From Auricularia sp. M13 (Eukaryota > Basidiomycota > Agaricomycetes > Auriculariales > Auriculariaceae), in the NCBI GenBank assembly GCA_037042915.1, contig CM073203.1, positions 1,488,001-1,552,000 of the forward strand: a DNA stretch of 64,000 nt, written 5' to 3'. The first letter of the stretch is position 1. Every line of letters starts with the position of its first letter. A program made the position numbers and the translations under genes. The notes under the pieces are model-generated. The model saw only the letters and a program-made list of their open reading frames with translations. It searched no databases and was not told the DNA's origin. Positions 2,510 to 43,705 of the stretch are shown here, piece after piece.

Positions 2510-3650
2510 ATGAGTGGCCGCTCGATGAGATGCACCAGCTCGGGCATCAAGGTCGCGTGCGTCCACCGCCTCCGCTGCCGCCGCCGCGGACTCAGGGCTG
2601 ACCGGCGCCTGCCTGTACAGCACGCCCGACGAGGCCAAGCTGCTCGTGCACGCCGTCGTGCTCGGCCTGCTGCCCAAGATCCAGTGGAGGCTCAGCGCCG
2701 AGGAGCGGCGCGACATCCGGCCCGGCGACGTCTTCGTCTGGCAGGACCACGCCGCGAACGCCGACTCCGGCGGAGCCTCCCTCGAGCGCTGGACGGACGG
2801 TACGCTCAGCCAGTCCAGCCCGTTGCCGCTGCTGACGACGCGCAGGTCGACACTGGGGCCCCAGCCGGATGCGCGATGTACGCGGCATACAGCAGCCTGC
2901 TTGTAGCCACTGACCCCCCTTTGCTCTTGCAGGAATTTCTTTTTTATTACGAGCGCGAGAACGAGAACGACGACCTGGGCTACACCCGGGACCCGGGCAC
3001 GTCGCGCATGATCAGGTACGCACGCTGCGCCCTGGCTTGGCTCTCGCTGTCGCTGACCGCAACCCAGCGTCGACCCGTCGCGGTACATGCAGCGCGACCA
3101 GATGCCCACGGGCCCGCGCGCGCCGGCGCTCCCGCTCAACGCGAACGGCGCGCTCAACCCGAACCGGCTCATCAAGCAGGCCTACTCCGTCGTCGTCCTC
3201 ACCGGCGGCCAGCCGTCCAAATGGCACATGAGTAAGTCCCGTCCCTTTGTCATCAGCCTGACCTGACCACCACCAGCCACGTACTTCACAAAGGCGAGCC
3301 TCGCCAAGCTGCGCTCGGTGCGCGAGCACCCGCAGCTGCGCGCGCTCAGCGTGCCCGAGGGCCAGTACATCTTCTTCAAGTCGTACAAGGCCCAGCTCGC
3401 CTCGCGCACGCTGCCGCACCAACAGCCGCAGCAGCCCGCAACGCCCGCGCTGCCGGGGCTCGCGTCGGTCATCACGACGCCGCTGCACACCGCGCGCTCG
3501 CCGCCGCCCGGGCCCGTGTCGCGCTACGCGACGCCCGGCCTGCCGTCGCCGACGGACCTGCTGCCCAAGGGCTACCCGCGCCGTCTCCCCGAGGACCAAC
3601 GCGCCATCCAGGCTTTCCAGCGGTACTCCCCGCCGCGTGTCGAGCCCTGA
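2510..3650 (+). CDS. WOPR-domain (Gti1/Pac2 family) transcription factor
   Basis: This is a fungal DNA-binding regulator; known members (Wor1, Gti1, Pac2, Ryp1) control morphological and developmental switches in the nucleus. Model exons are 2510-2513, 2596-2799, 2846-2877, 2933-3015, 3068-3231 and 3277-3650, giving 286 aa with every join in phase. The first WOPR half holds WRLSAEERRDI, VFVWQDH and the hallmark WTDG-RHWGPSRMRDEFLFYYE, the last split over two introns. The second half holds LIKQAYSV, KWHMTTYFT and the closing VPEGQYIFFKSYKAQ. The C-terminal 80 residues are rich in Pro, Ser and Arg, as is usual. The first exon, ATG plus one base with a weak GTGGCC donor, is the doubtful part: there is no in-frame ATG in the next exon, and this join is the only one found that fits the TATA box. 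It stands alone between two long gene-poor stretches. Confidence 0.88.
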
Positions 3651-28255: not shown

Positions 28256-29474
28256 TTACAGCGGACGCGTATCAACCAACAGACTCTGAGCCATCGCACC
28301 AGGAATGGCCCTTTGCCCGCTCACGCCCTGCAGAATCTTGCGGACCTCTTTGTCTTCCTGCTCCGTGATCTGCACCTTCAAAGCGCCTACGTTCTCCACA
28401 AGACGGTCGATGTTGGTCGTCCTATGAGGGTTTAGTCCCAAGCCGATCAGGTCAAGAGGTCGAAATAACGCACGCTGGGATGGGGATGATGTCGTCTCCC
28501 TGCGCCATGACCCACGCGAGGGTGAGCTGGCCGATTGTGACGCCCTTGCTCTCAGCAAGACTCCCGAGCTTCTCGACGAGCTCCACGTTCTTCGGGAAGT
28601 TCTCCTCGGAGTAGCGCGGGAAGAGCAGGCGCTGGTCCGCGGGGTCGAGGTCCGCGCGCGAGCGAATCTTGCCGCCGAGCATGCCGCGCCCGAGCGGGCT
28701 GTACGCGACGACGGGGATGCCGAGCTCGCGGCACGCGCTGAGCAGGCCCACTTGTGGATCCTCGATGTCCAGTGAGAAGGGCGAGTACTCGACCTGCACG
28801 GCGGAGATGGGGTGCACGGCGTGCGCGCGGCGCAGCGTCGCCGCGGAGCACTCGCAGATCCCGATGTACCGCGCCTTGCCTGCCTTGACGAGCTCTGCGA
28901 GCGCTGAGACGGAGTGCTCGATGGGCACGTTGGCGTCGAGGCGGTGCAGGTAGAGCAGGTCGACGAAGGGCAGTCCGAGGCGCTCGAGGAGCTTCTCGGT
29001 AGCGGAGCGAATGCTGCGCAAAATAGATCAAACTCCAATCAATCTATAGGTGGCTTTCGTACTATTCGGGGTCCGAACGAGCGCGGGGTACCCCTCCCTC
29101 GCGTGAAATGCCGACCTTGGACGCAAGGAACTTCACAATTCAAGGTGAGCCGATATTTGCAAGACGAGATACGAACGGAGCTCACCACTTTGTCACGGTT
29201 TCCCGTGCGCTCGAAGTAGCTCCTCAGGGTCTCAGAGTTGTTTCCGTACGCGTCGGAGCTGTCCCAGAATGTGCATCCCAGCTCAATCGCCTTGTCGAAG
29301 AGTTGGAACGCCTTCTCATCGGGGAGCGACTGTCCGCGCGCGTATGAGACGGCCTTGTAGAGTGGAGCGTCAGAAGTGCGATACAGAGCAGCATGTGTAT
29401 GAAAGAGCTACCCCAAGACCATAACCAAGAGCAGAGACGGTAGGGCCGTTGCGTCCAAGAGTGATAGTCTTCAT
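28256..29474 (-). CDS. Aldo-keto reductase (AKR13-like)
   Basis: A cytosolic NADPH-dependent carbonyl reductase. Exons are 29474-29412, 29353-29186, 29130-29063, 29013-28474 and 28421-28256, giving 334 aa with all joins in phase, the usual length. The TIM-barrel landmarks are present: LGRNGPTVSALGYGLG, the catalytic Asp and Tyr in GCTFWDSSDAYGNN, FLASKVGI with the catalytic Lys, DLLYLHRLDANVPIEHSV with the catalytic His, GICECSAATLRRA, QVEYSPFSLDIE, VVAYSPLGRGML, and NFPKNVELVEKL. A TATA box on the same strand (29523-29516) lies 42 bases before the ATG. The duplication described below begins 142 bases upstream of this start, so its promoter lies partly at the array edge. Confidence 0.93.
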
Positions 29475-29515
29475 TTCTGTCAGTATAACGCAAGAGCTCA
29501 CTTTGCTTGAGCTCG

Positions 29516-29523
29516 TATATATA
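29516..29523 (-). promoter_or_regulatory. TATA box of the aldo-keto reductase gene
   Basis: An alternating TATATATA on the minus strand, 42 bases upstream of the ATG at 29474. Confidence 0.55.
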
Positions 29524-30177
29524 CCCTACGCATGCCGTGGCGGCTACCCTGACGGCAGGGTGGGGAGGAAAGCAGCCAATAGCAAGCCGGGCTTCGCGTC
29601 ATCCCCCGCATGTCCTCCGCGTTGGCAAGTGCTTTGTAAGCAGAATTTCTCGTAAGCCTCATGACAAAACGCACTAATATTATGTCAGCAGCCACCATCG
29701 GTCGGAGCGGATGTCAAGAATGCGTGTTGCAACTTCACCCACGATCTGGTGAAGACCTTTCAGTTACAGCGTTATTGGTCCACTCATCAGCTGTCGCAGG
29801 GCTGCGGAAGGGATGTGTGTACCTATGCCTTGGACCTTAGAGCCTGGTTCCATGAATCAACTGAGATTCTGCCATGACAGGTGCGCTGGAAGCCCCTGAC
29901 ATGAGCATCGGAACGACTGCCGTACACGCTGCGGCAAACCACTCCCTCACAGTACTTAGCAGCACACACAACGACATCAAGAGACTGTACTTGATTCTTT
30001 GTGTTCTTTGCGGAAAACGTACGTACTCAAGCTCCAATGCATGTACAGTACACATCCTCGATCAGAATACGAACACACACATATTGAATCTTGAGGGACT
30101 ACGACACCGCATCTCAGTAGTGATTCTCGTTTCCGATCGATCAAACAAGAACATACAGTACCGACTCGGAGTACGTT

Positions 30178-30521
30178 TTAGACGACCCCGCAGAAAGGGC
30201 TCGAGCTCATCGCGTTGCTGCCGCCGTCGTCGTTCGTCGCCTGCACGCAGCTGCCCGTGACGATGGCGGGCACGCACGCCGTCACCGGGCCCGCACGCAC
30301 GCGTTGCGGCTGTACGCCGTGAGCTGCTGCCCGCTCCCGCCTGAGCCGGTGATCCTGAACGACTGGAAGCCGCCGAGCGGCGCGCACGAGTTGTCGAACA
30401 CGTTGCGGCTGCCCGCGGGCACGGTGCAGCCCGTGTCGGAGAAGAGGTCGACGATGACCGCGTTTACGCTGCCCGCGGCGACGGCGGCGAGGAGCGCGAG
30501 CAAGGGTGACTTGAGCTGCAT
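30178..30521 (-). pseudogene. Small secreted cysteine protein, copy 1, frameshifted
   Basis: It has the same start, signal peptide and first cysteines as copy 2, but two extra bases near 30292-30302 (an extra GC/CA step in CCGCACGCACGCG) change the frame. Translation stops after 79 codons with three of the six cysteines. Either the copy is inactive or this is an assembly error in a repeat. The same strand has a TATATA box about 50 bases before the ATG. Confidence 0.8.
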
Positions 30522-32912
30522 GGTGGCTTCAACTTGGTTGCGCTGATTTCGGAGGGGTGAGAGGGTTTATATACCCCTTTTCCGCGGGACTTATCATAAT
30601 TATAGCTTCGTCGCCCTGGCTAGTAATGTCGCCCGTGGAGCATGACAGACGCGGAAATACACGTTTCGCACTGCCGACTAACAGGTACGCCATTGTTTAG
30701 CCCCTCAGTTTATATCCCTGGGATCCGGAACCCCTCTTCTCACGTACTTGTAGTGAAATGCGACTGACCGATGGAGGTCTACGAGTCGAGGACCACAAGA
30801 TGATTTTTGTCTATACATCTCAATATCGCTGCGAAAACCGTTTGACGTTCAGCGGAGACTCCACACTGGGGAGCCACCAAGTTAACGCTTTCCAACCTCA
30901 GTGCGCTGGCAAAAACGCCACAACAACGTGCGTAGGCCCCCAAGTATTGACGTGCACAGGCCTTGACATTCAAACGCATGGACCCTTGCGTCATGTTCCT
31001 TGCAGTGATGCGCTCATATTACATTTAAAGGAATTGCGCCTGATGGCAGGAAACCCGCAGAATTCCCTATATATGCAAACATCATGCTATCATATGACAC
31101 GAGTCTCATTCATACTTTACCCATCACCGAACGCACTTCATAGTTCCGAGATTATGTTTCAAGCATAGTTCAGTGCTCGAGAGCGTCGTTCGAAATAGTT
31201 CCATAGGTTAATATGTACCTCTACAGCTACTTTAAAATTTGAACGCATCATCATCATGGCTTCGCAATCGGAAAGTTTGAGTCGGACCAGAGCCACAGCC
31301 TCAGCAGAGTCTGAGGCTCGAGCTGCGCATGTGGTGTTACACCGCGCATTTCGCGAAGGACTGTTATTTCTCAGAAGCATTCGGACGTAATGTACTGTAA
31401 GGGCCGATCTCCCTTGATGCTACACAGCATGCCCGTAGCCCCTGCGTAACCTTAGCCCACTCAGACTCAGGACTGCGCGGCTGCCGGCTGCCGGGTCCAC
31501 CGCAAAATCGTAACAACTCCCTCGGCAAATATGCGCCTGAGGATTCAGGTTCATGAGCACTCTCAGGCTGAACGCGACACGGTCGGTCTCGCAGAGCACA
31601 CAGAAGGCCGAGCATCGAGTGTATAGTTCACACTGACAAGGCTGCAGTGGCAGGTCTGCCAGTCCGAGTCGGTGTGCGACATTCAGTTGATAGATGACCA
31701 CGCGCCGCCGGCGAGAAAAGTCTCCGGAGCGCAGCGCAAGTGACTCGAACATACAGTAGCTCACGCCGACGTTACTGTACGACTCGGACACCTACACGAT
31801 GTGAAATTGGGAGCGCACTAGCAGCATTCAAGGCGTGCAGGCGCGGGGGTATAGCTATAGAGAGGGTAAGTACTGTCGCCTGCCAGTGGACCGTAATCGC
31901 ACGGAGAAGACTGACCGTTCCTCGAAGTCCGGACACACGAGCTGAAGTCGGGATGAAGGCCGACTCGAAGTACGTCGGCACCTCTGCCGACGTCGCAACA
32001 CCGAGCAGAACGTTGGAATTTAGAAAGGCGGTTCCGCAGAGAACTGCAGCGACGTTGACAGAACTCGATGAGCAGACGTTCAAGGTGGTGGGCAGATTGC
32101 AAGCTTGGCAATGGCGAAGGTGGATCCGGAAGTCTGAAGAAAAGAGTCCCGGGAGCGGCTTGTCGACCTTGCGCCAAATCGCGAATGTCCGCACGGCTCC
32201 TCTACTTATACTCGAACGGTCGACTGAGTGAACGAGCGCTAGCGTAGCCTGAGTGTTGCTTAGACTGAGCGAGCGCTCGCGGGACCTGTGTCGGTGGTGC
32301 ATCCCCAATATAGGCTGCAAAGTATAAATAGGCAATACACGCTATGTTCGATTTGTTGTTTCCGGTCAGGCTTCCCTGCCAGTGCAGGTCTGAACTCACC
32401 TGGCGGTTCCGACCGTCCTCCGTCCGCTTGTCACTGCCAAACGACCCTGCGATGAATTACACTGCGACGAACCATGTTGACATTAACAGCTGGCAGGTCC
32501 AGGGCAGCGATCATGACGCAGAGACTAAGTTCTGGCTGCTTGTCGGGAGTTGTAGCCTGATTCCGAGACTCGAAGTGTGGCGTCGGGTGGTCCACCTTGA
32601 CCTTCTGAGAGCTTCGGAGGGCGGGCAGCTCGGAGGACGCTGGGGTTCGTTGTATGGGCGAAGCACAGCGAGGGCCCGCAACGTGTATGAGCGGTATTGG
32701 CGATGTCGAGTCTCCTGGCGCACGTTCAAGAGAGACTGAGAGCAGAGAGACGTGGGTGCAAGACAAAATTAGGCAAGATCAGGAATGCGGGGAGAGCACT
32801 GAGCAGATCACGGATGCAAGCACCGCGTGCTCCGCCCTGGTCAACTGATACTGTACTTATACTTACTTACCCTCAGCCGGCAGTCACCCCTTCCCCTTCC
32901 CCCGCTGGAGCC
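30522..32912. other. Repeat-unit interior without a supported gene (also 33947-36340 and 37377-39773)
   Basis: These 2.4 kb separate the minus-strand secreted protein gene from the plus-strand ceramidase start in each unit. Two frames recur in all copies (136 codons at 30758 and 123 codons on the minus strand at 31420), but their conservation only reflects recent duplication. A TATAAATA box (32323-32330 in unit 1) lies about 590 bases before the ceramidase ATG and may start a transcript with a long leader. Confidence 0.45.
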
Positions 32913-33104
32913 ATGTTCTCCGTTTCTTCGCACCTGCTCGCCGTCGCCGCCGTCCTCGGGGCGGTCAACGCGCAGTACCTGCTCGGCCTGGGCATCGGGG
33001 ACATCACCGGCCCCGTCGTCGAGACGAACATGATGGGCTACGTCCGCGTTGGCAAGTGCTTTGTAAGCAGAATTTCTCGTAAGCCTCATGACAAAACGCA
33101 CTAA
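32913..33104 (+). pseudogene. Truncated ceramidase 5' copy with chimeric tail (unit 1/2 junction)
   Basis: The frame starts exactly like the intact ceramidase: signal peptide MFSVSSHLLAVAAVLGAVNA and the mature start QYLLGLGIGDITGPV, up to residue 43. At the unit junction it reads into unrelated DNA for about 20 codons (VRVGKCFVSRISRKPHDKTH) and stops at 33104. The 63-aa product would be secreted but lacks every catalytic residue. A copy of the ceramidase promoter lies in front, so transcription is possible. Confidence 0.75.
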
Positions 33105-33604
33105 TATTATGTCAGCAGCCACCATCGGTCGGAGCGGATGTCAAGAATGCGTGTTGCAACTTCACCCACGATCTGGTGAAGACCTTTCAGTTACAGCGTT
33201 ATTGGTCCACTCATCAGCTGTCGCAGGGCTGCGGAAGGGATGTGTGTACCTATGCCTTGGACCTTAGAGCCTGGTTCCATGAATCAACTGAGATTCTGCC
33301 ATGACAGGTGCGCTGGAAGCCCCTGACATGAGCATCGGAACGACTGCCGTACACGCTGCGGCAAACCACTCCCTCACAGTACTTAGCAGCACACACAACG
33401 ACATCAAGAGACTGTACTTGATTCTTTGTGTTCTTTGCGGAAAACGTACGTACTCAAGCTCCAATGCATGTACAGTACACATCCTCGATCAGAATACGAA
33501 CACACACATATTGAATCTTGAGGGACTACGACACCGCATCTCAGTAGTGATTCTCGTTTCCGATCGATCAAACAAGAACATACAGTACCGACTCGGAGTA
33601 CGTT

Positions 33605-33946
33605 TTAGACGACCCCGCAGAAAGGGCTCGAGCTCATCGCGTTGCTGCCGCCGTCGTCGTTCGTCGCCTGCACGCAGCTGCCCGTGACGATGGCGGGCAC
33701 GCACGCCGTCACCGGGCCCGCGCACGCGTTGCGGCTGTACGCCGTGAGCTGCTGCCCGCTCCCGCCTGAGCCGGTGATCCTGAACGACTGGAAGCCGCCG
33801 AGCGGCGCGCACGAGTTGTCGAACACGTTGCGGCTGCCCGCGGGCACGGTGCAGCCCGTGTCGGAGAAGAGGTCGACGATGACCGCGTTTACGCTGCCCG
33901 CGGCGACGGCGGCGAGGAGCGCGAGCAAGGGTGACTTGAGCTGCAT
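33605..33946 (-). CDS. Small secreted cysteine-rich protein, copy 2, intact
   Basis: 113 aa, single exon, ATG at 33946. Residues 1-21 are a signal peptide (MQLKSPLLALLAAVAAGSVNA), so the product is exported. The mature part is about 92 residues with six cysteines (GCTVP, NSCAPLG, NACAG, TACVP, GSCVQ, PFCGVV), enough for three disulfides. It is Gly/Ser-rich with SFRITGSGGSGQQ in the middle. It fits the class of basidiomycete small secreted proteins, but I cannot name a family, and it lacks the paired-cysteine pattern of hydrophobins. A TATATA box at 33993-33998 on the same strand gives a very short leader. It is the only one of three copies with an unbroken frame. Confidence 0.8.
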   Translation of the reverse strand: MQLKSPLLALLAAVAAGSVNAVIVDLFSDTGCTVPAGSRNVFDNSCAPLGGFQSFRITGSGGSGQQLTAYSRNACAGPVTACVPAIVTGSCVQATNDDGGSNAMSSSPFCGVV

Positions 33947-33992
33947 GGTGGCTTCAACTTGGTTGCGCTGATTTCGGAGGGGTGAGAGGGTT

Positions 33993-33998
33993 TATATA
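33993..33998 (-). promoter_or_regulatory. TATA box of the secreted protein gene
   Basis: TATATA about 47 bases before the ATG of copy 2. It is conserved at the equivalent place in copies 1 and 3 (near 30570 and 37422). Confidence 0.55.
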
Positions 33999-36340
33999 CC
34001 CCTTTTCCGCGGGACTTATCATAATTATAGCTTCGTCGCCCTGGCTAGTAATGTCGCCCGTGGAGCATGACAGACGCGGAAATACACGTTTCGCACTGCC
34101 GACTAACAGGTACGCCATTGTTTAGCCCCTCAGTTTATATCCCTGGGATCCGGAACCCCTCTTCTCACGTACTTGTAGTGAAATGCGACTGACCGATGGA
34201 GGTCTACGAGTCGAGGACCACAAGATGATTTTTGTCTATACATCTCAATATCGCTGCGAAAACCGTTTGACGTTCAGCGGAGACTCCACACTGGGGAGCC
34301 ACCAAGTTAACGCTTTCCAACCTCAGTGCGCTGGCAAAAACGCCACAACAACGTGCGTAGGCCCCCAAGTATTGACGTGCACAGGCCTTGACATTCAAAC
34401 GCATGGACCCTTGCGTCATGTTCCTTGCAGTGATGCGCTCATATTACATTTAAAGGAATTGCGCCTGATGGCAGGAAACCCGCAGAATTCCCTATATATG
34501 CAAACATCATGCTATCATATGACACGAGTCTCATTCATACTTTACCCATCACCGAACGCACTTCATAGTTCCGAGATTATGTTTCAAGCATAGTTCAGTG
34601 CTCGAGAGCGTCGTTCGAAATAGTTCCATAGGTTAATATGTACCTCTACAGCTACTTTAAAATTTGAACGCATCATCATCATGGCTTCGCAATCGGAAAG
34701 TTTGAGTCGGACCAGAGCCACAGCCTCAGCAGAGTCTGAGGCTCGAGCTGCGCATGTGGTGTTACACCGCGCATTTCGCGAAGGACTGTTATTTCTCAGA
34801 AGCATTCGGACGTAATGTACTGTAAGGGCCGATCTCCCTTGATGCTACACAGCATGCCCGTAGCCCCTGCGTAACCTTAGCCCACTCAGACTCAGGACTG
34901 CGCGGCTGCCGGCTGCCGGGTCCACCGCAAAATCGTAACAACTCCCTCGGCAAATATGCGCCTGAGGATTCAGGTTCATGAGCACTCTCAGGCTGAACGC
35001 GACACGGTCGGTCTCGCAGAGCACACAGAAGGCCGAGCATCGAGTGTATAGTTCACACTGACAAGGCTGCAGTGGCAGGTCTGCCAGTCCGAGTCGGTGT
35101 GCGACATTCAGTTGATAGATGACCACGCGCCGCCGGCGAGAAAAGTCTCCGGAGCGCAGCGCAAGTGACTCGAACATACAGTAGCTCACGCCGACGTTAC
35201 TGTACGACTCGGACACCTACACGATGTGAAATTGGGAGCGCACTAGCAGCATTCAAGGCGTGCAGGCGCCGGGGGTATAGCTATAGAGAGGGTAAGTACT
35301 GTCGCCTGCCAGTGGACCGTAATCGCACGGAGAAGACTGACCGTTCCTCGAAGTCCGGACACACGAGCTGAAGTCGGGATGAAGGCCGACTCGGTACGTC
35401 GGCACCTCTGCCGACGTCGCAACACCGAGCAGAACGTTGGAATTTAGAAAGGCGGTTCCGCAGAGAACTGCAGCGACGTTGACAGAACTCGATGAGCAGA
35501 CGTTCAAGGTGGTGGGCAGATTGCAAGCTTGGCAATGGCGAAGGTGGATCCGGAAGTCTGAAGAAAAGAGTCCCGGGAGCGGCTTGTCGACCTTGCGCCA
35601 AATCGCGAATGTCCGCACGGCTCCTCTACTTATACTCGAACGGTCGACTGAGTGAACGAGCGCTAGCGTAGCCTGAGTGTTGCTTAGACTGAGCGAGCGC
35701 TCGCGGGACCTGTGTCGGTGGTGCATCCCCAATATAGGCTGCAAAGTATAAATAGGCAATACACGCTATGTTCGATTTGTTGTTTCCGGTCAGGCTTCCC
35801 TGCCAGTGCAGGTCTGAACTCACCTGGCGGTTCCGACCGTCCTCCGTCCGCTTGTCACTGCCAAACGACCCTGCGATGAATTACACTGCGACGAACCATG
35901 TTGACATTAACAGCTGGCAGGTCCAGGGCAGCGATCATGACGCAGAGACTAAGTTCTGGCTGCTTGTCGGGAGTTGTAGCCTGATTCCGAGACTCGAAGT
36001 GTGGCGTCGGGTGGTCCACCTTGACCTTCTGAGAGCTTCGGAGGGCGGGCAGCTCGGAGGACGCTGGGGTTCGTTGTATGGGCGAAGCACAGCGAGGGCC
36101 CGCAACGTGTATGAGCGGTATTGGCGATGTCGAGTCTCCTGGCGCACGTTCAAGAGAGACTGAGAGCAGAGAGACGTGGGTGCAAGACAAAATTAGGCAA
36201 GATCAGGAATGCGGGGAGAGCACTGAGCAGATCACGGATGCAAGCAAGCACCGCGTGCTCCGCCCTGGTCAACTGATACTGTACTTATACTTACTTACCC
36301 TCAGCCGGCAGTCACCCCTTCCCCTTCCCCCGCTGGAGCC

Positions 36341-36532
36341 ATGTTCTCCGTTTCTTCGCACCTGCTCGCCGTCGCCGCCGTCCTCGGGGCGGTCAACGCG
36401 CAGTACCTGCTCGGCCTGGGCATCGGGGACATCACCGGCCCCGTCGTCGAGACGAACATGATGGGCTACGTCCGCGTTGGCAAGTGCTTTGTAAGCAGAA
36501 TTTCTCGTAAGCCTCATGACAAAACGCACTAA
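36341..36532 (+). pseudogene. Truncated ceramidase 5' copy with chimeric tail (unit 2/3 junction)
   Basis: The predicted 63 residues are identical to those of the copy at 32913, with the same junction. Two identical chimeric frames show that one duplication event created the junction and a later step copied it. Confidence 0.75.
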
Positions 36533-39500
36533 TATTATGTCAGCAGCCACCATCGGTCGGAGCGGATGTCAAGAATGCGTGTTGCAACTTCACCCACGAT
36601 CTGGTGAAGACCTTTCAGTTACAGCGTTATTGGTCCACTCATCAGCTGTCGCAGGGCTGCGGAAGGGATGTGTGTACCTATGCCTTGGACCTTAGAGCCT
36701 GGTTCCATGAATCAACTGAGATTCTGCCATGACAGGTGCGCTGGAAGCCCCTGACATGAGCATCGGAACGACTGCCGTACACGCTGCGGCAAACCACTCC
36801 CTCACAGTACTTAGCAGCACACACAACGACATCAAGAGACTGTACTTGATTCTTTGTGTTCTTTGCGGAAAACGTACGTACTCAAGCTCCAATGCATGTA
36901 CAGTACACATCCTCGATCAGAATACGAACACACACATATTGAATCTTGAGGGACTACGACACCGCATCTCAGTAGTGATTCTCGTTTCCGATCGATCAAA
37001 CAAGAACATACAGTACCGACTCGGAGTACGTTTTAGACGACCCCGCAGAAAGGGCTCGAGCTCATCGTTGTTGCCTGCCGCCGTCGTCGTTCGTCGCCTG
37101 CACGCAGCTGCCCGTGACGATGGCGGGCACGCACGCCGTCACCGGGCCGCGCACGCGTTGCGGCTGTACGCCGTGAGCTGCTGCCCGCTCCCGCCTGAGC
37201 CGGTGATCCTGAACGACTGGAAGCCGCCCGAGCGGCGCGCACGAGTTGTCGAACACGTTGCGGCTGCCCGCGGGCACGGTGCAGCCCGTGTCGGAGAAGA
37301 GGTCGACGATGACCGCGTTTACGCTGCCCGCGGCGACGGCGGCGAGGAGCGCGAGCAAGGGTGACTTGAGCTGCATGGTGGCTTCAACTTGGTTGCGCTG
37401 ATTTCGGAGGGTGAGAGGGTTTATATACCCCTTTTCCGCGGGACTTATCATAATTATAGCTTCGTCGCCCTGGCTAGTAATGTCGCCCGTGGAGCATGAC
37501 AGACGCGGAAATACACGTTTCGCACCGCCGACTAACAGGTACGCCATTGTTTAGCCCCTCAGTTTATATCCCTGGGATCCGGAACCCCTCTTCTCACGTA
37601 CTTGTAGTGAAATGCGACTGACCGATGGAGGTCTACGAGTCGAGGACCACAAGATGATTTTTGTCTATACATCTCAATATCGCTGCGAAAACCGTTTGAC
37701 GTTCAGCGGAGACTCCACACTGGGGAGCCACCAAGTTAACGCTTTCCAACCTCAGTGCGCTGGCAAAAACGCCACAACAACGTGCGTAGGCCCCCAAGTA
37801 TTGACGTGCACAGGCCTTGACATTCAAACGCATGGACCCTTGCGTCATGTTCCTTGCAGTGATGCGCTCATATTACATTTAAAGGAATTGCGCCTGATGG
37901 CAGGAAACCCGCAGAATTCCCTATATATGCAAACATCATGCTATCATATGACACGAGTCTCATTCATACTTTACCCATCACCGAACGCACTTCATAGTTC
38001 CGAGATTATGTTTCAAGCATAGTTCAGTGCTCGAGAGCGTCGTTCGAAATAGTTCCATAGGTTAATATGTACCTCTACAGCTACTTTAAAATTTGAACGC
38101 ATCATCATCATGGCTTCGCAATCGGAAAGTTTGAGTCGGACCAGAGCCACAGCCTCAGCAGAGTCTGAGGCTCGAGCTGCGCATGTGGTGTTACACCGCG
38201 CATTTCGCGAAGGACTGTTATTTCTCAGAAGCATTCGGACGTAATGTACTGTAAGGGCCGATCTCCCTTGATGCTACACAGCATGCCCGTAGCCCCTGCG
38301 TAACCTTAGCCCACTCAGACTCAGGACTGCGCGGCTGCCGGCTGCCGGGTCCACCGCAAAATCGTAACAACTCCCTCGGCAAATATGCGCCTGAGGATTC
38401 AGGTTCATGAGCACTCTCAGGCTGAACGCGACACGGTCGGTCTCGCAGAGCACACAGAAGGCCGAGCATCGAGTGTATAGTTCACACTGACAAGGCTGCA
38501 GTGGCAGGTCTGCCAGTCCGAGTCGGTGTGCGACATTCAGTTGATAGATGACCACGCGCCGCCGGCGAGAAAAGTCTCCGGAGCGCAGCGCAAGTGACTC
38601 GAACATACAGTAGCTCACGCCGACGTTACTGTACGACTCGGACACCTACACGATGTGAAATTGGGAGCGCACTAGCAGCATTCAAGGCGTGCAGGCGCCG
38701 GGGGTATAGCTATAGAGAGGGTAAGTACTGTCGCCTGCCAGTGGACCGTAATCGCACGGAGAAGACTGACCGTTCCTCGAAGTCCGGACACACGAGCTGA
38801 AGTCGGGATGAAGGCCGACTCGAAGTACGTCGGCACCTCTGCCGACGTCGCAACACCGAGCAGAACGTTGGAATTTAGAAAGGCGGTTCCGCAGAGAACT
38901 GCAGCGACGTTGACAGAACTCGATGAGCAGACGTTCAAGGTGGTGGGCAGATTGCAAGCTTGGCAATGGCGAAGGTGGATCCGGAAGTCTGAAGGAAAAG
39001 AGTCCCGGGAGCGGCTTGTCGACCTTGCGCCAAATCGCGAACGTCCGCACGGCTACTCTACTTATACTCGAACGGTCGACTGACTGAACGAGCGCTAGCG
39101 TAGCCTGAGTGTTGCTTAGAGCGCTCGCGGGACCTGTGTCGGTGGTGCATCCCCAATATAGGCTGCCAAGTATAAATAGGCAATACACGCTATGTTGTTT
39201 CCGGTCAGGCTTCCCTACCAGTGCAGGTCTGCACTCACCTGGCGGTTCCGACCGTCCTCCGTCCGGTTGTCGCTGCCAAACGACCCTGTGATGAATTACA
39301 CTGCGACGGACCATGTTGACATTGCAGTAACAGCTGGCAGGTCCAGGGCAGCGATCATGACGCAGAGACTAAGTTCTGGCTGCTTGTCGGGAGTTGTAGC
39401 CTGATTCCGGGACTCGAAGCTCGAAGTGTGGCGTCGGGTGGTCCATCTTGACCTTCTGAGAGCGGGCTGCTCGGAGGACGAAGGGGTTCGTTGTATGGGC

Positions 39501-39903
39501 GAAGCACAGCGAGGGCCCGCAACGTGTGTGAGCGGTATTGGCGATGTCGAGTCTCCTGGCGCACGTTCAAGAGAGAGTGAGAGCAGAGAGAGCTGGGTGC
39601 AAGACAAAATTAGGCAAGATCAGGAATGCGGGGAGAGCACTGAGCAGATCACGGATGCAAGCCAGCACCGCGTGCTCCGCCCTGGTCAACTGATACTGTA
39701 CTTATATTACGCTCAGCCGGCAGCCGTTGCGTGCACCCCTTACCCTTCCCGTTCCCCTTCCTTCGCTGGAGCCATGTTCTCCGTTTCTTCGCACCTGCTC
39801 GCCGTCGCCGCCGTCCTCGGGGCGGTCAACGCGCAGTACCTGCTCGGCCTGGGCATCGGGGACATCACCGGCCCCGTCGTCGAGACGAACATGATGGGCT
39901 ACG
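36471..39903. repeat. Tandem unit 3 of 3 (3433 bp)
   Basis: Its left 2.5 kb is almost identical to units 1 and 2. Its right part from about 38990 to 39770 carries many substitutions and indels, while the last 130 coding bases are identical again. This unit runs without a break into the complete ceramidase gene. Confidence 0.95.
37033..37376 (-). pseudogene. Small secreted cysteine protein, copy 3, frameshifted
   Basis: ATG at 37376 and the signal peptide are intact. There are then three indels relative to copy 2: one extra C near 37227, one C lost near 37146 and about two extra bases near 37066-37076. The frame changes after the second cysteine. All three lie in GC-rich or repetitive spots, so sequencing or polishing error is possible. 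Confidence 0.8.
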
Positions 39904-42900
39904 CGGCGCTGTCCCAGACCGACACCGGCCTGCACATGCGCCAGCGCGCGCGCGCCTTCATCGTCGCCGACGCGTCCAACCCGGCCGAGCGCGTGCTGTT
40001 CGTCAACCTCGGTCAGTACTCCGCATACGCATACATCGCCCCTGAACGCGGCAGACGACGCTAAACCGTTCGCGCTGTAGACATCGGGATGGGCGACACC
40101 GGCATCCGGCGCGGCATCCTCGCGCGGCTGCAGGCCGCGTACAACGGCACGTACACCGGCACGAACACCGCGCTCTCGAGCACGCACGCGCACTCGGGCG
40201 TCGGCGGCTACGTCGAGAACCTGCTCCCGCAGCTCACCTCGCTCGGCTTCGTCCCCCAGGCGTACAACGCCATCGTCGACGGCACCCTCAAGGCCGTCCA
40301 GCGCGCCCACGACTCCCTGAAACCCGGCAGCCTCGCCGTCGGCAACATCACCGTCCAGGACGCCAACATCAACCGCTCGCCGTTCTCGTACCTCCAGAAC
40401 CCCGCGGAGGAGCGCGCGCGCTATGCCGACGACCAGGATAAGGACCTCAGTCTGCTCAACTTCCTCGGACAGGACGGCAAGAGCCGCGGCTTTTTGAGCT
40501 TTTACCCCGTCCATGGCACCAGTCTGTACGAAGTGCGTGATCGGCCTCTTATGAGGCTTTTTTGCGGGATATTGATCGTCGTTGTAACAGAACAACACGC
40601 TCGTTAGCGGAGACAACAAGGGCATGGCGGCCTATCTGTATGAATGTAAGCTTTAAAGCAGGTCGCGTTACGACCTACTTACTTTTTTCTGCTGCAGCGT
40701 TCGTCGAGCCGGACGCCACGCCGGGCGCGACGACCTTTGTCGCGGGCTTCGCGCAGGCCAACGTGGGCGACACCAGCCCGAACGTGTGCGTCCCCATCCC
40801 CATCCCCCCTTCCTCCACCGCGTCTCCCTTCCTCCTCCCTCGCATCTCACTGACGCTCCCCTCCCGCCTTCTCAGCCTGGGCGCCTTCTGCGAATCCCCC
40901 GGGCAACCGTGGGACGGCCAGCCATGCGACTTCCGTACGTCGACCTGCGGCAACAAGACGCAGGACTGCCACGGGCGCGGGCCGGGCTTCGCGCTGCCCG
41001 ACGCCGACTTCGCGTCCAACGCCATCATCGGCGCGCGCCAGTTCGAGGGCGCCAAGGCGCTCGTCACCGGCGCGGGCGGCAAGACGCTTGCGCCCGTGCG
41101 CGGTGTTGTGCGCAGTGTGCATCAGTATGTTGATATGACCAACTATACGTTCACCTTGGCGAACGGGACGAGCGTGCATACTTGCCCGGCGGCTATGGGT
41201 GCGTTTTCCTGTTTCGGCTGATTTTGATTTTGTGTGTCGGGCAGGCGAGCTGACGCTTGCGTGAGGGTACTCGTTCGCCGGCGGAACTACCGACGGGCCC
41301 GGCGCGTTCGACTTTACGCAGGGAGACAACTCCACGACGCAGTGCGTAGTTTGCGTGGATACACTCCTGCTGAGCGTTTCACTGATTCCTTTTTTCTTTT
41401 TTTCTTTGACGCTTGTTGCTTTTTTCTTTTTCGCTTGCTGCTTTTTTGGTTCGGAAATTTGTTGATGCCTGCCTGCGTTTTTCTGTGCGATTGTTGCTCT
41501 GTCTTGCGCCCTGACGTAACTCTCTTCCGCCCTTACGTACCTCTTTTGGGCACTCACACATCTCTCTTTTGTCCTGACGTACCCCTCTTTTGCCCTCGCG
41601 CACACTCTTTTCGCGCCCTCGCGCCCTCGCTCTTCCGCCCTTACGTACGTCCTCCCTTGTACGCACACACACACACGCATTAGGAACCCGCTCTGGGAGA
41701 TCGTCAAGGGCGCGGTGACGCCGCTCCCCTCCGCCGCGCAGATCGCGTGTCACGCGCCCAAGCCGATCCTCCTCAACACCGTGAGTCCGCCTCTCCCCCC
41801 TCCTTCCCCCGCGCGCCGGCTGCGTGCGGTGTGACACCCGCCGCGCTGCGTACGGCGTGATACCCGCTGCGCTACGTACGGCGTGATACCTGCTACGCTG
41901 CGTGCGGTGTGCTGACCGCCGCTCTGCGTGCTGTGTGCTGCGTGCCGCCCGCCCCCGCCGCGCGTCGCCCGCCCCGCCGCTCTGCCTGCTGACTGACCCG
42001 CGCGCACCGCACAGGGCGAGGCGACGTTCCCGTACAACTGGACGCCGCACGTCGTCGACGTGCAGATCCTGCGCGTCGGCAACTTCGTCATCCTCGTCAT
42101 GCCCGGCGAGTTTACCACTATGGCTGGCCGGAGGATTCGGTGCGTTTCTTTTTTGCTTTTTTTGCTGGGTTTGGGGAGGTAAAGGTGCTGACGTTTGCCT
42201 TGTCTTCTTTGACGCGTCTTTCTCTCCTTCGCCCTATGCGCCGGTTCGCGCTCGCTTGCTCGCTCGTTCTCGATCGCCCTTGCTTCTTCGCTCGCACAGT
42301 GAGGCCATCCGCGCGAAGCTCATCAAGGAGGGCGCGGTGGGCGACGACGCGTACGTCGTCATCGCCGGCCCGGCCAACACGTACGCGCACTACGTCACGA
42401 CGCGCGAGGAGTACGCCGTGCAGCGCTACGAGGGCGCGTCGACACTCTACGGGCCGTGTGCGTGTCATTCTTCCTCCTCTCTCTTAAATCCTGGCTGACG
42501 AGCTGCCGTGTCGTCTTGCTGCTCGCGTCGTTTTGCGTGCGCTCATTGGCACCCGCTTACCCTCGATTGCACTCGCTTTGCTCGCCTTCGCTCGCGCAGT
42601 CACACACGAAGCCTACATGGACATCTACGCCAAGCTGACGCCGTACATCTCCGCGTCGCCGCCGTCGACGCCGCCGCCGAGCGCGCCCGCGCCGGCGGAC
42701 CTGACGAAGAACGCGCTCTCGCTCCAGACGGGCGTCGTGATGGACGGCCCGCCGAGCGGCAAGAAGTTCGGCGACGTGCTGGTCGATGTGGCCGGCAAGA
42801 CGTTCAGCGCGGGCGAGACTGTTAATGTTACGTTCGTTGGGGCGAATCCGAGGGTGCGTCCTTTTTTTTTTTCGTTTCCGTTTGCCCTCTTTCGTTTCCG

Positions 42901-43560
42901 TTTGCCCTCTTTCGTTGCCCGCTTTGCGAGGGCGGGATGTTGAGGTCGGATGTGCTGACGCGCGCGCTGTAGAATAACCTGCACCTGGAAGGCACGTTCC
43001 TGAGCGTCGACCGGCTCGTGAGCGGCACCAACTTCACGACCGTCCGCACCGACGGACACCCGAGCACCAAGTTCCGCTGGCTGCGCACCGGCGGCGGGCT
43101 CAGTGCTACGAGCGAGGTTACTATCACTTGGTGCGTCTGAGTTCTTTGTGCGGGGAAGAACCTTGTCCGCGGAGGGGGAGAACCTCTTCCACGGAGGGGG
43201 AGACCCTCTTCCACGGAAGGGGAGAGCCTCTTCCACGGAGGGGGGAGACCCTCTTCCACGGAGGGGGGAGACCCTCTTCCACGGAGGGGGGAGACCCACT
43301 TCCACTGCAGGGAAGGGGGGGGGGGGGGCTCCCTCCACTGGAAAGGAGCGGGAGACCCTCCCCCCACGTGGGGGGTTACCCTTGTTCGCTTTCGCTCGCT
43401 CGCTCACGCTTCGCTAACGCTCGCACGCGCGCGCAGGACGATCGAGAGCGGCACGCCCGCGGGGCAGTACCGCGTGAGCTACTACGGCGACTCGAAGCCG
43501 CTCATCGGGTCCATCACGCCGTTCACGGGCCACTCGGGCACGTTCACCGTCGCCGCGTGA
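39774..43560 (+). CDS. Neutral/alkaline ceramidase, secreted
   Basis: It hydrolyses ceramide to sphingosine and fatty acid. There are 12 exons: 39774-40011, 40081-40532, 40591-40645, 40698-40785, 40876-41198, 41266-41341, 41684-41780, 42015-42139, 42300-42457, 42600-42853, 42973-43130 and 43437-43560. All joins are in phase, giving 715 aa. A signal peptide covers residues 1-20. The catalytic domain starts at LLGLGIGDITGP. The zinc-binding STHAHSG holds His115 and His117, and the nucleophile is Ser275 in NVGDTSPN. GYSFAGGTTDGPGAFDFTQG, APKPILLNTG, VMPGEFTTMAGRR and IAGPANTYAHYVTTREEY follow. The C-terminal beta domain ends with GHSGTFTVAA. Ten NxS/T sites are plausible for a secreted enzyme. 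Introns 6, 7, 10 and 11 and the 3' flank are made of minisatellites. Its promoter and first 130 coding bases are also present in the two upstream repeat units. Confidence 0.95.
41500..41660. repeat. Imperfect ~21 bp minisatellite in ceramidase intron 6
   Basis: Pyrimidine-rich units of about 21 bp contain CCCTTACGTAC or CCTGACGTAC followed by CTCTTTTG, repeated about six times with mismatches. On the reverse strand this gives a frame with a seven-residue repeat, which should not be read as protein. Confidence 0.65.
41818..41935. repeat. Imperfect ~27 bp minisatellite in ceramidase intron 7
   Basis: About four units contain CTGCGTACGGCGTGATACC or CTGCGTGCGGTGTGA. The intron is 234 bp, several times the usual length here. 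Confidence 0.65.
43150..43328. repeat. ~22 bp G/A-rich minisatellite and G14 run in ceramidase intron 11
   Basis: About seven units of GGGGAGACCCTCTTCCACGG type run from 43150 to 43311, then an uninterrupted run of 14 G at 43315-43328. Both strands have strong purine/pyrimidine bias, prone to triplex or G-quadruplex structure. Confidence 0.8.
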
Positions 43561-43578: not shown

Positions 43579-43705
43579 TTTTTGTTCGTCGCCGTCGAGT
43601 CGAGACTTTGTTCGTCGCCGTCGAGACTTTGTGCGTCGCCGTCGAGACTTTGTTTGTCGCCGTCGAGTCTTTGTTCGTCGCCGTCGCCGTCGAGACTTTG
43701 CGTTG
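43579..43705. repeat. ~21 bp minisatellite just after the ceramidase stop codon
   Basis: About five units of TTTGTTCGTCGCCGTCGAGA occur within 150 bases of the stop at 43560, so they lie in the 3' untranslated region. A short TTAC tetranucleotide run follows (43724-43746). Confidence 0.8.

Follow-up and report, generated by a model that had tools for sequence, protein, structure and literature searches.

Between an aldo-keto reductase gene and a neutral ceramidase gene of Auricularia sp. M13, the assembly contains three head-to-tail copies of a 3.43-kb interval (29616-39903), each with a small secreted protein gene and a version of the ceramidase promoter. On balance, we consider the array to be a real, young and ordinary tandem duplication that was formed by a blunt join and whose last unit switches between haplotypes. 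We are more confident, though short of certain, that the junction exists in the DNA; a count of exactly three units is less likely than that, and the exact number of units is uncertain. Positions refer to the window, i.e., the whole stretch of 64,000 nucleotides that was analysed (C11:1488001-1552000), and the features are collected in Table 1.

Table 1. Features of the array and its flanks, in window coordinates.
Feature	Position	Strand	Remarks
Aldo-keto reductase gene	28256..29474	-	left flank, unduplicated; ATG 29474, stop inferred at 28256; PF00248
Unit 1	29616..33042	.	3427 bp
Unit 2	33043..36470	.	3428 bp
Unit 3	36471..39903	.	3433 bp; mosaic
Derived junction 1/2	33042..33043	.	blunt; TCCGCGTTGG follows ceramidase codon 43 plus G
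Derived junction 2/3	36470..36471	.	same as junction 1/2
Secreted-protein gene, unit-1 copy	30178..30521	-	2-base insertion, frameshifted
Small secreted protein gene, open copy (unit 2)	33605..33946	-	113 aa, one exon
Secreted-protein gene, unit-3 copy	37033..37376	-	three small indels, frameshifted
Low-copy dispersed-repeat relic	31087..31257	+	171 bases, (CAT)n end; also 34512-34682 and 37941-38111
Ceramidase exon-1 fragment, unit 1	32913..33042	+	43 codons plus 1 base
Ceramidase exon-1 fragment, unit 2	36341..36470	+	43 codons plus 1 base
Chimeric open frame at junction 1/2	32913..33104	+	predicted; second copy starts at 36341
Divergent ceramidase-promoter block of unit 3	38994..39763	.	26 substitutions and 8 indels relative to unit 2; probable second haplotype
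Intact neutral ceramidase gene	39774..43560	+	modelled with 12 exons, 714 aa; PF04734 and PF17048

The three head-to-tail units that an earlier note on this DNA had described, with the lengths listed in Table 1, are present in the sequence. The units share thousands of exact 30-mers at these spacings, far above chance, which excludes a chance repeat. At both inner junctions GGGCTACG is followed directly by TCCGCGTTGG, with 0 bp of microhomology and 0 inserted bases. The earlier note had allowed for at most one shared base and had attributed the first duplication to end joining rather than to recombination between repeats; a join without homology agrees with both statements, and template switching would give the same blunt junction. 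The breakpoints fall where that note had placed them, 142 bp upstream of the reductase ATG and at codon 43-44 of the ceramidase. The 18-base junction string has two exact occurrences in the genome (0 mismatches allowed), compared to 0 for the same string read backward as a control. The window contains 0 Ns; the array is gapless, and a scaffold gap between copies, which is a mark of false duplication, is absent.

Repeat-mediated duplication is ruled out, because homology is absent at the join and the dispersed-repeat relic is located inside the unit and not at its ends. Elsewhere in the genome, C11 carries two 436-base copies of the repeat that are identical to each other, one near 108 kb and one near 2717 kb, and 108-base parts of it are located at C13:23615 and C2:37405. 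Identical blunt junctions and near-identical copies would also be expected from a one-unit extrachromosomal circle that closed at the junction and was then integrated, or was mistakenly assembled into the chromosome; however, nothing calls for such a circle, and unit 3, whose promoter block is different, continues into the intact ceramidase, so that we regard this origin as extremely improbable. Young tandem segmental duplications with homology-free breakpoints are of the end-joining or template-switch type. The array resembles these in its contiguous head-to-tail arrangement, its single common derived junction and its near-identical copies; unlike them, it ends in a unit with another version of the promoter, and its copy number is that of the assembly.

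The outer edges of the array were compared to homologous sequences. The reductase (PF00248, E 3.1e-44 on exon 28452-29021) has a paralog on contig C2 with 93% identity over residues 3-186 of the 189-aa query. The paralog lies within C2:5027001-5035000, and its DNA is 80% identical to that of the window through the reductase (from 28256) and its promoter, across 29616 and up to 29719, i.e., 104 bases into unit 1. Because this alignment is continuous across 29616, the array retains the ancestral sequence at its left edge. At the other end, the ceramidase is 88% identical to an Auricularia subglabra protein over the entire 714-aa model; the alignment covers 100% of the query, and the right edge of the array is therefore ancestral as well. 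With ancestral outer edges, both inner junctions are derived, as in a tandem duplication.

In the ceramidase model, 10 of the 11 introns are GT..AG; the exon after the third intron starts 3 bases past an AG, and one residue is perhaps missing there. The two domains that identify a neutral ceramidase, PF04734 and PF17048, are on separate open frames. As in other fungal neutral/alkaline ceramidases with these domains, there is one full-length gene with both of them; unlike in those, two fragments consisting of the promoter and 43 codons are located upstream. An exon-2 query matches 1 place in the genome, which bears out the claim that the amplification left a single ceramidase gene. Short-period tandem repeats are found at 43152-43305, 41814-41937 and 43599-43686, with periods of 23, 26 and 21 bases; two are in ceramidase introns of the model, and one is just past the stop codon.

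Near identity of the units had been claimed for most of their length; it holds for units 1 and 2 and for most of unit 3, and it fails in the promoter part of the last 0.9 kb of unit 3. Over 3423 aligned bases, 1 substitution separates unit 1 from unit 2; there are also 4 indel events, three of them in alignment positions 1-2527 and one in 2528-3329. Their divergence is 0.03%, with an upper 95% limit of 0.16%. Given the 2.34% heterozygosity reported for M13 in the available part of its genome paper (PMC12113221), a single substitution in 3423 bases dates the duplication, or the last homogenisation, to about 1% of the divergence between haplotypes, and to at most ~7%.

Unit 3 compared to unit 2 falls into three parts. 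Positions 1-2527 contain 5 substitutions in 2518 bases (0.2%) and 5 indels, positions 2528-3329 contain 26 substitutions in 736 bases (3.53%) and 8 indels, and the final 140 bases contain 0 differences. Divergence is thus low between units 1 and 2, and in unit 3 over the first 2.5 kb and the last 140 bases, with the 736-base block as the exception. If the units came from two haplotypes at 2.34% heterozygosity, their first 2527 bases should contain ~59 differences; the observed divergence is far under this number, and the starts of all three units therefore look like one haplotype. The 3.53% divergence of the block, compared to 2.34% genome-wide heterozygosity and to 0.2% in the first 2.5 kb, is in the range of allelic divergence, and the block probably represents another haplotype of the heterozygous strain. 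Four of the five early substitutions of unit 3 are located at a single indel site within the secreted-protein frame; these few substitutions are not fully accounted for by a clean switch of haplotype or by indel error alone.

An older duplication with ~3.5% divergence might instead have been homogenised by gene conversion that spared only the promoter block of the last unit. Homogenisation often leaves the edges of a tandem array untouched, which fits the position of the block; however, at the rate of the block ~4.9 substitutions would be expected in the final 140 bases and 0 are observed (P ~0.007), so that a separate short conversion tract would be needed there, and we give this history only a small chance. 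The final 140 bases hold the ceramidase start, which is functional in unit 3 and useless in units 1 and 2. Decay after the duplication should have hit the useless start, and the lack of differences therefore favors allelic constraint; constraint on two functional alleles explains the unchanged end more simply than decay after duplication. An assembly phase switch and true recombination fit the mosaic equally well, with the phase switch the more likely of the two. The earlier note had the third copy arising most simply by unequal crossing over; with unit 3 a mosaic that a phase switch explains equally, this is not the sole simple history.

The background of the assembly bears directly on these comparisons. 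It consists of 52,096,326 bases in 14 contigs. According to the available part of the genome paper (PMC12113221), assembly GCA_037042915.1 was made with NECAT and corrected with Racon and with Pilon "to remove heterozygosity"; the read type is given as PacBio HiFi in the results text and as Nanopore in a table. The same source gives a k-mer estimate of 49.62 Mb and 6.6% duplicated BUSCOs in the predicted gene set. An assembly of 52.10 Mb compared to the 49.62 Mb estimate, together with the duplicated BUSCOs, indicates that most of it, though not all, is collapsed. The sister strain M12 is called a dikaryon there (PMC12113221), and M13 is presumably one too. The titles of the Auricularia ceramidase literature and the available parts of the genome papers PMC12113221 and PMC9225563 gave no account of the locus.

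Heterozygous assemblies are a setting for false duplications, according to the parts of two studies available to us (PMC9516828, PMC8957140). Copies in a heterotype false duplication have allele-like differences, and those in a homotype false duplication have indel-dominated ones (PMC9516828); phase switches were widespread when a dikaryotic rust was assembled from Nanopore reads (PMC8957140). The array might then be wholly or partly an artefact of assembly: with one real unit (or two on one haplotype), both alleles and a further, error-laden copy of one allele would have been placed in series. The 2.34% heterozygosity, the NECAT assembly with Racon and Pilon correction, and the duplicated BUSCOs are all compatible with this reading, as are the widespread phase switches in the rust. 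The allele-like substitutions between units 2 and 3, concentrated in the promoter block, and the differences between units 1 and 2, almost all indels, match the heterotype and homotype patterns, respectively. Unlike those false duplications, however, the array has a base-exact, gapless junction between non-homologous sequences twice, which misplacement of alleles alone cannot make. A locus with a single unit does not contain GGGCTACG joined to TCCGCGTTGG, and two identical, gapless and exact joins require reads that carried the junction; this favors a real array, and we consider an artefact rather unlikely.

In a genome search with unit 3 as query, the best candidates scored included two matching places, both of them the 171-base relic; we did not retain the possibility that the unit persists elsewhere as a second haplotype, with the limit that the window's own copies were absent from this list and that the search is not proof of absence.

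The neighborhood was surveyed for repeats over 264 kb of C11 (200 kb upstream plus the window), using alignments of at least 200 bases. One further near-identical abutting direct pair was found, with a period of 4391 bases (C11:1371594-1381234) and flanked by 867-base dispersed repeats. The survey also revealed near-identical direct pairs with a spacing of 8.7 kb (1574 bases) and of 6.2 kb (1006 bases), as well as an old direct pair with 73-76% identity and 4.35-kb spacing. The region C11:1288001-1488000 is repeat-rich, and the 867-base repeat occurs in both orientations at at least 7 places. Within the window, no RNA gene matched Rfam at gathering thresholds, and a plasmid collection contained no near match for 29500-33100.

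The secreted-protein gene is present in all three units; its frame is open only in unit 2 in this assembly, so that the claim that the array amplifies a secreted protein stands for the gene and is unproven for the protein. Residual read or consensus errors may account for the frameshifts in units 1 and 3. Four indel events are in the three copies of the 342-base frame, compared to 3 in the three copies of 2185 bases (Fisher P 0.008), an enrichment that was counted post hoc and is alignment-dependent. A sequence 52 bp upstream of the unit-2 ATG is what we take to be a TATA-like box.

The protein has 57-80% identity with 15 aligned relatives. It belongs to a patchy fungal family whose predicted fold appears betagamma-crystallin-like, and small secreted proteins with a betagamma-crystallin or MiAMP1-like fold are the nearest known system for it; a literature search on crystallin-fold small secreted fungal proteins gave no match. 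Twelve named relatives, with 58-80% identity, come from Agaricales and Ascomycota, and the tree of the family intermixes the two phyla. Auriculariales are absent among the 28 named of the 102 matches.

The predicted chimeric frame at the junction encodes 63 aa if unspliced; splicing of a candidate 53-base intron (33063-33115) would extend it to 112 aa. In a search of this genome, the 62-aa tail after the candidate intron matched the three units alone (3 of 3, E up to 1). Homology to the C2 paralog in the stretch of the tail runs on from the reductase promoter and ends at 29719. We considered whether the junction created a new gene and rejected it: the 112-aa frame is probably accidental, since its tail has no relatives in this genome outside the array and the C2 homology merely extends that of the reductase promoter.

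A more far-reaching reading combines several of these elements: a horizontally spread secreted gene with a betagamma-crystallin-like fold would be undergoing tandem amplification in one nucleus, the duplicated ceramidase promoters would drive new secreted chimeras (the ceramidase signal peptide with a foreign tail), and the nuclei of one mycelium would be polymorphic in copy number. Horizontal transfer of the secreted-protein gene is by itself possible; to the combined reading we give an even smaller chance than to gene conversion.

For the favored reading, a young tandem duplication, we infer the order of events, the haplotype origin and the dosage effect as follows. On one nuclear haplotype, a break inside ceramidase exon 1 would have been joined bluntly to a break upstream of the reductase, so that the 3.43-kb interval became repeated head to tail. 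Recombination between the copies would then have raised the copy number. Within the ceramidase promoter, the last unit would change over to the other haplotype, more likely through an assembly phase switch than through true recombination. Provided that its copies are intact, the small secreted protein gene would be present at a higher dosage. The ceramidase itself is expected to be unchanged, because the copy adjoining its coding sequence keeps the whole promoter; the truncated copies could make merely a short secreted peptide that lacks nearly all of the ceramidase domain.

The locus is a good case for caution with assemblies of heterozygous fungi. In such an assembly, one unit may come out as a mosaic of both haplotypes and repeated genes may retain frameshifts, and gene counts and pseudogene calls from arrays therefore need read support. 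If the array is real, it would be a tandem duplication caught soon after it arose, with breakpoints defined to the base and one edge checked by an ancestral control, and it would point to a possible difference in copy number between the two nuclei of one mycelium.
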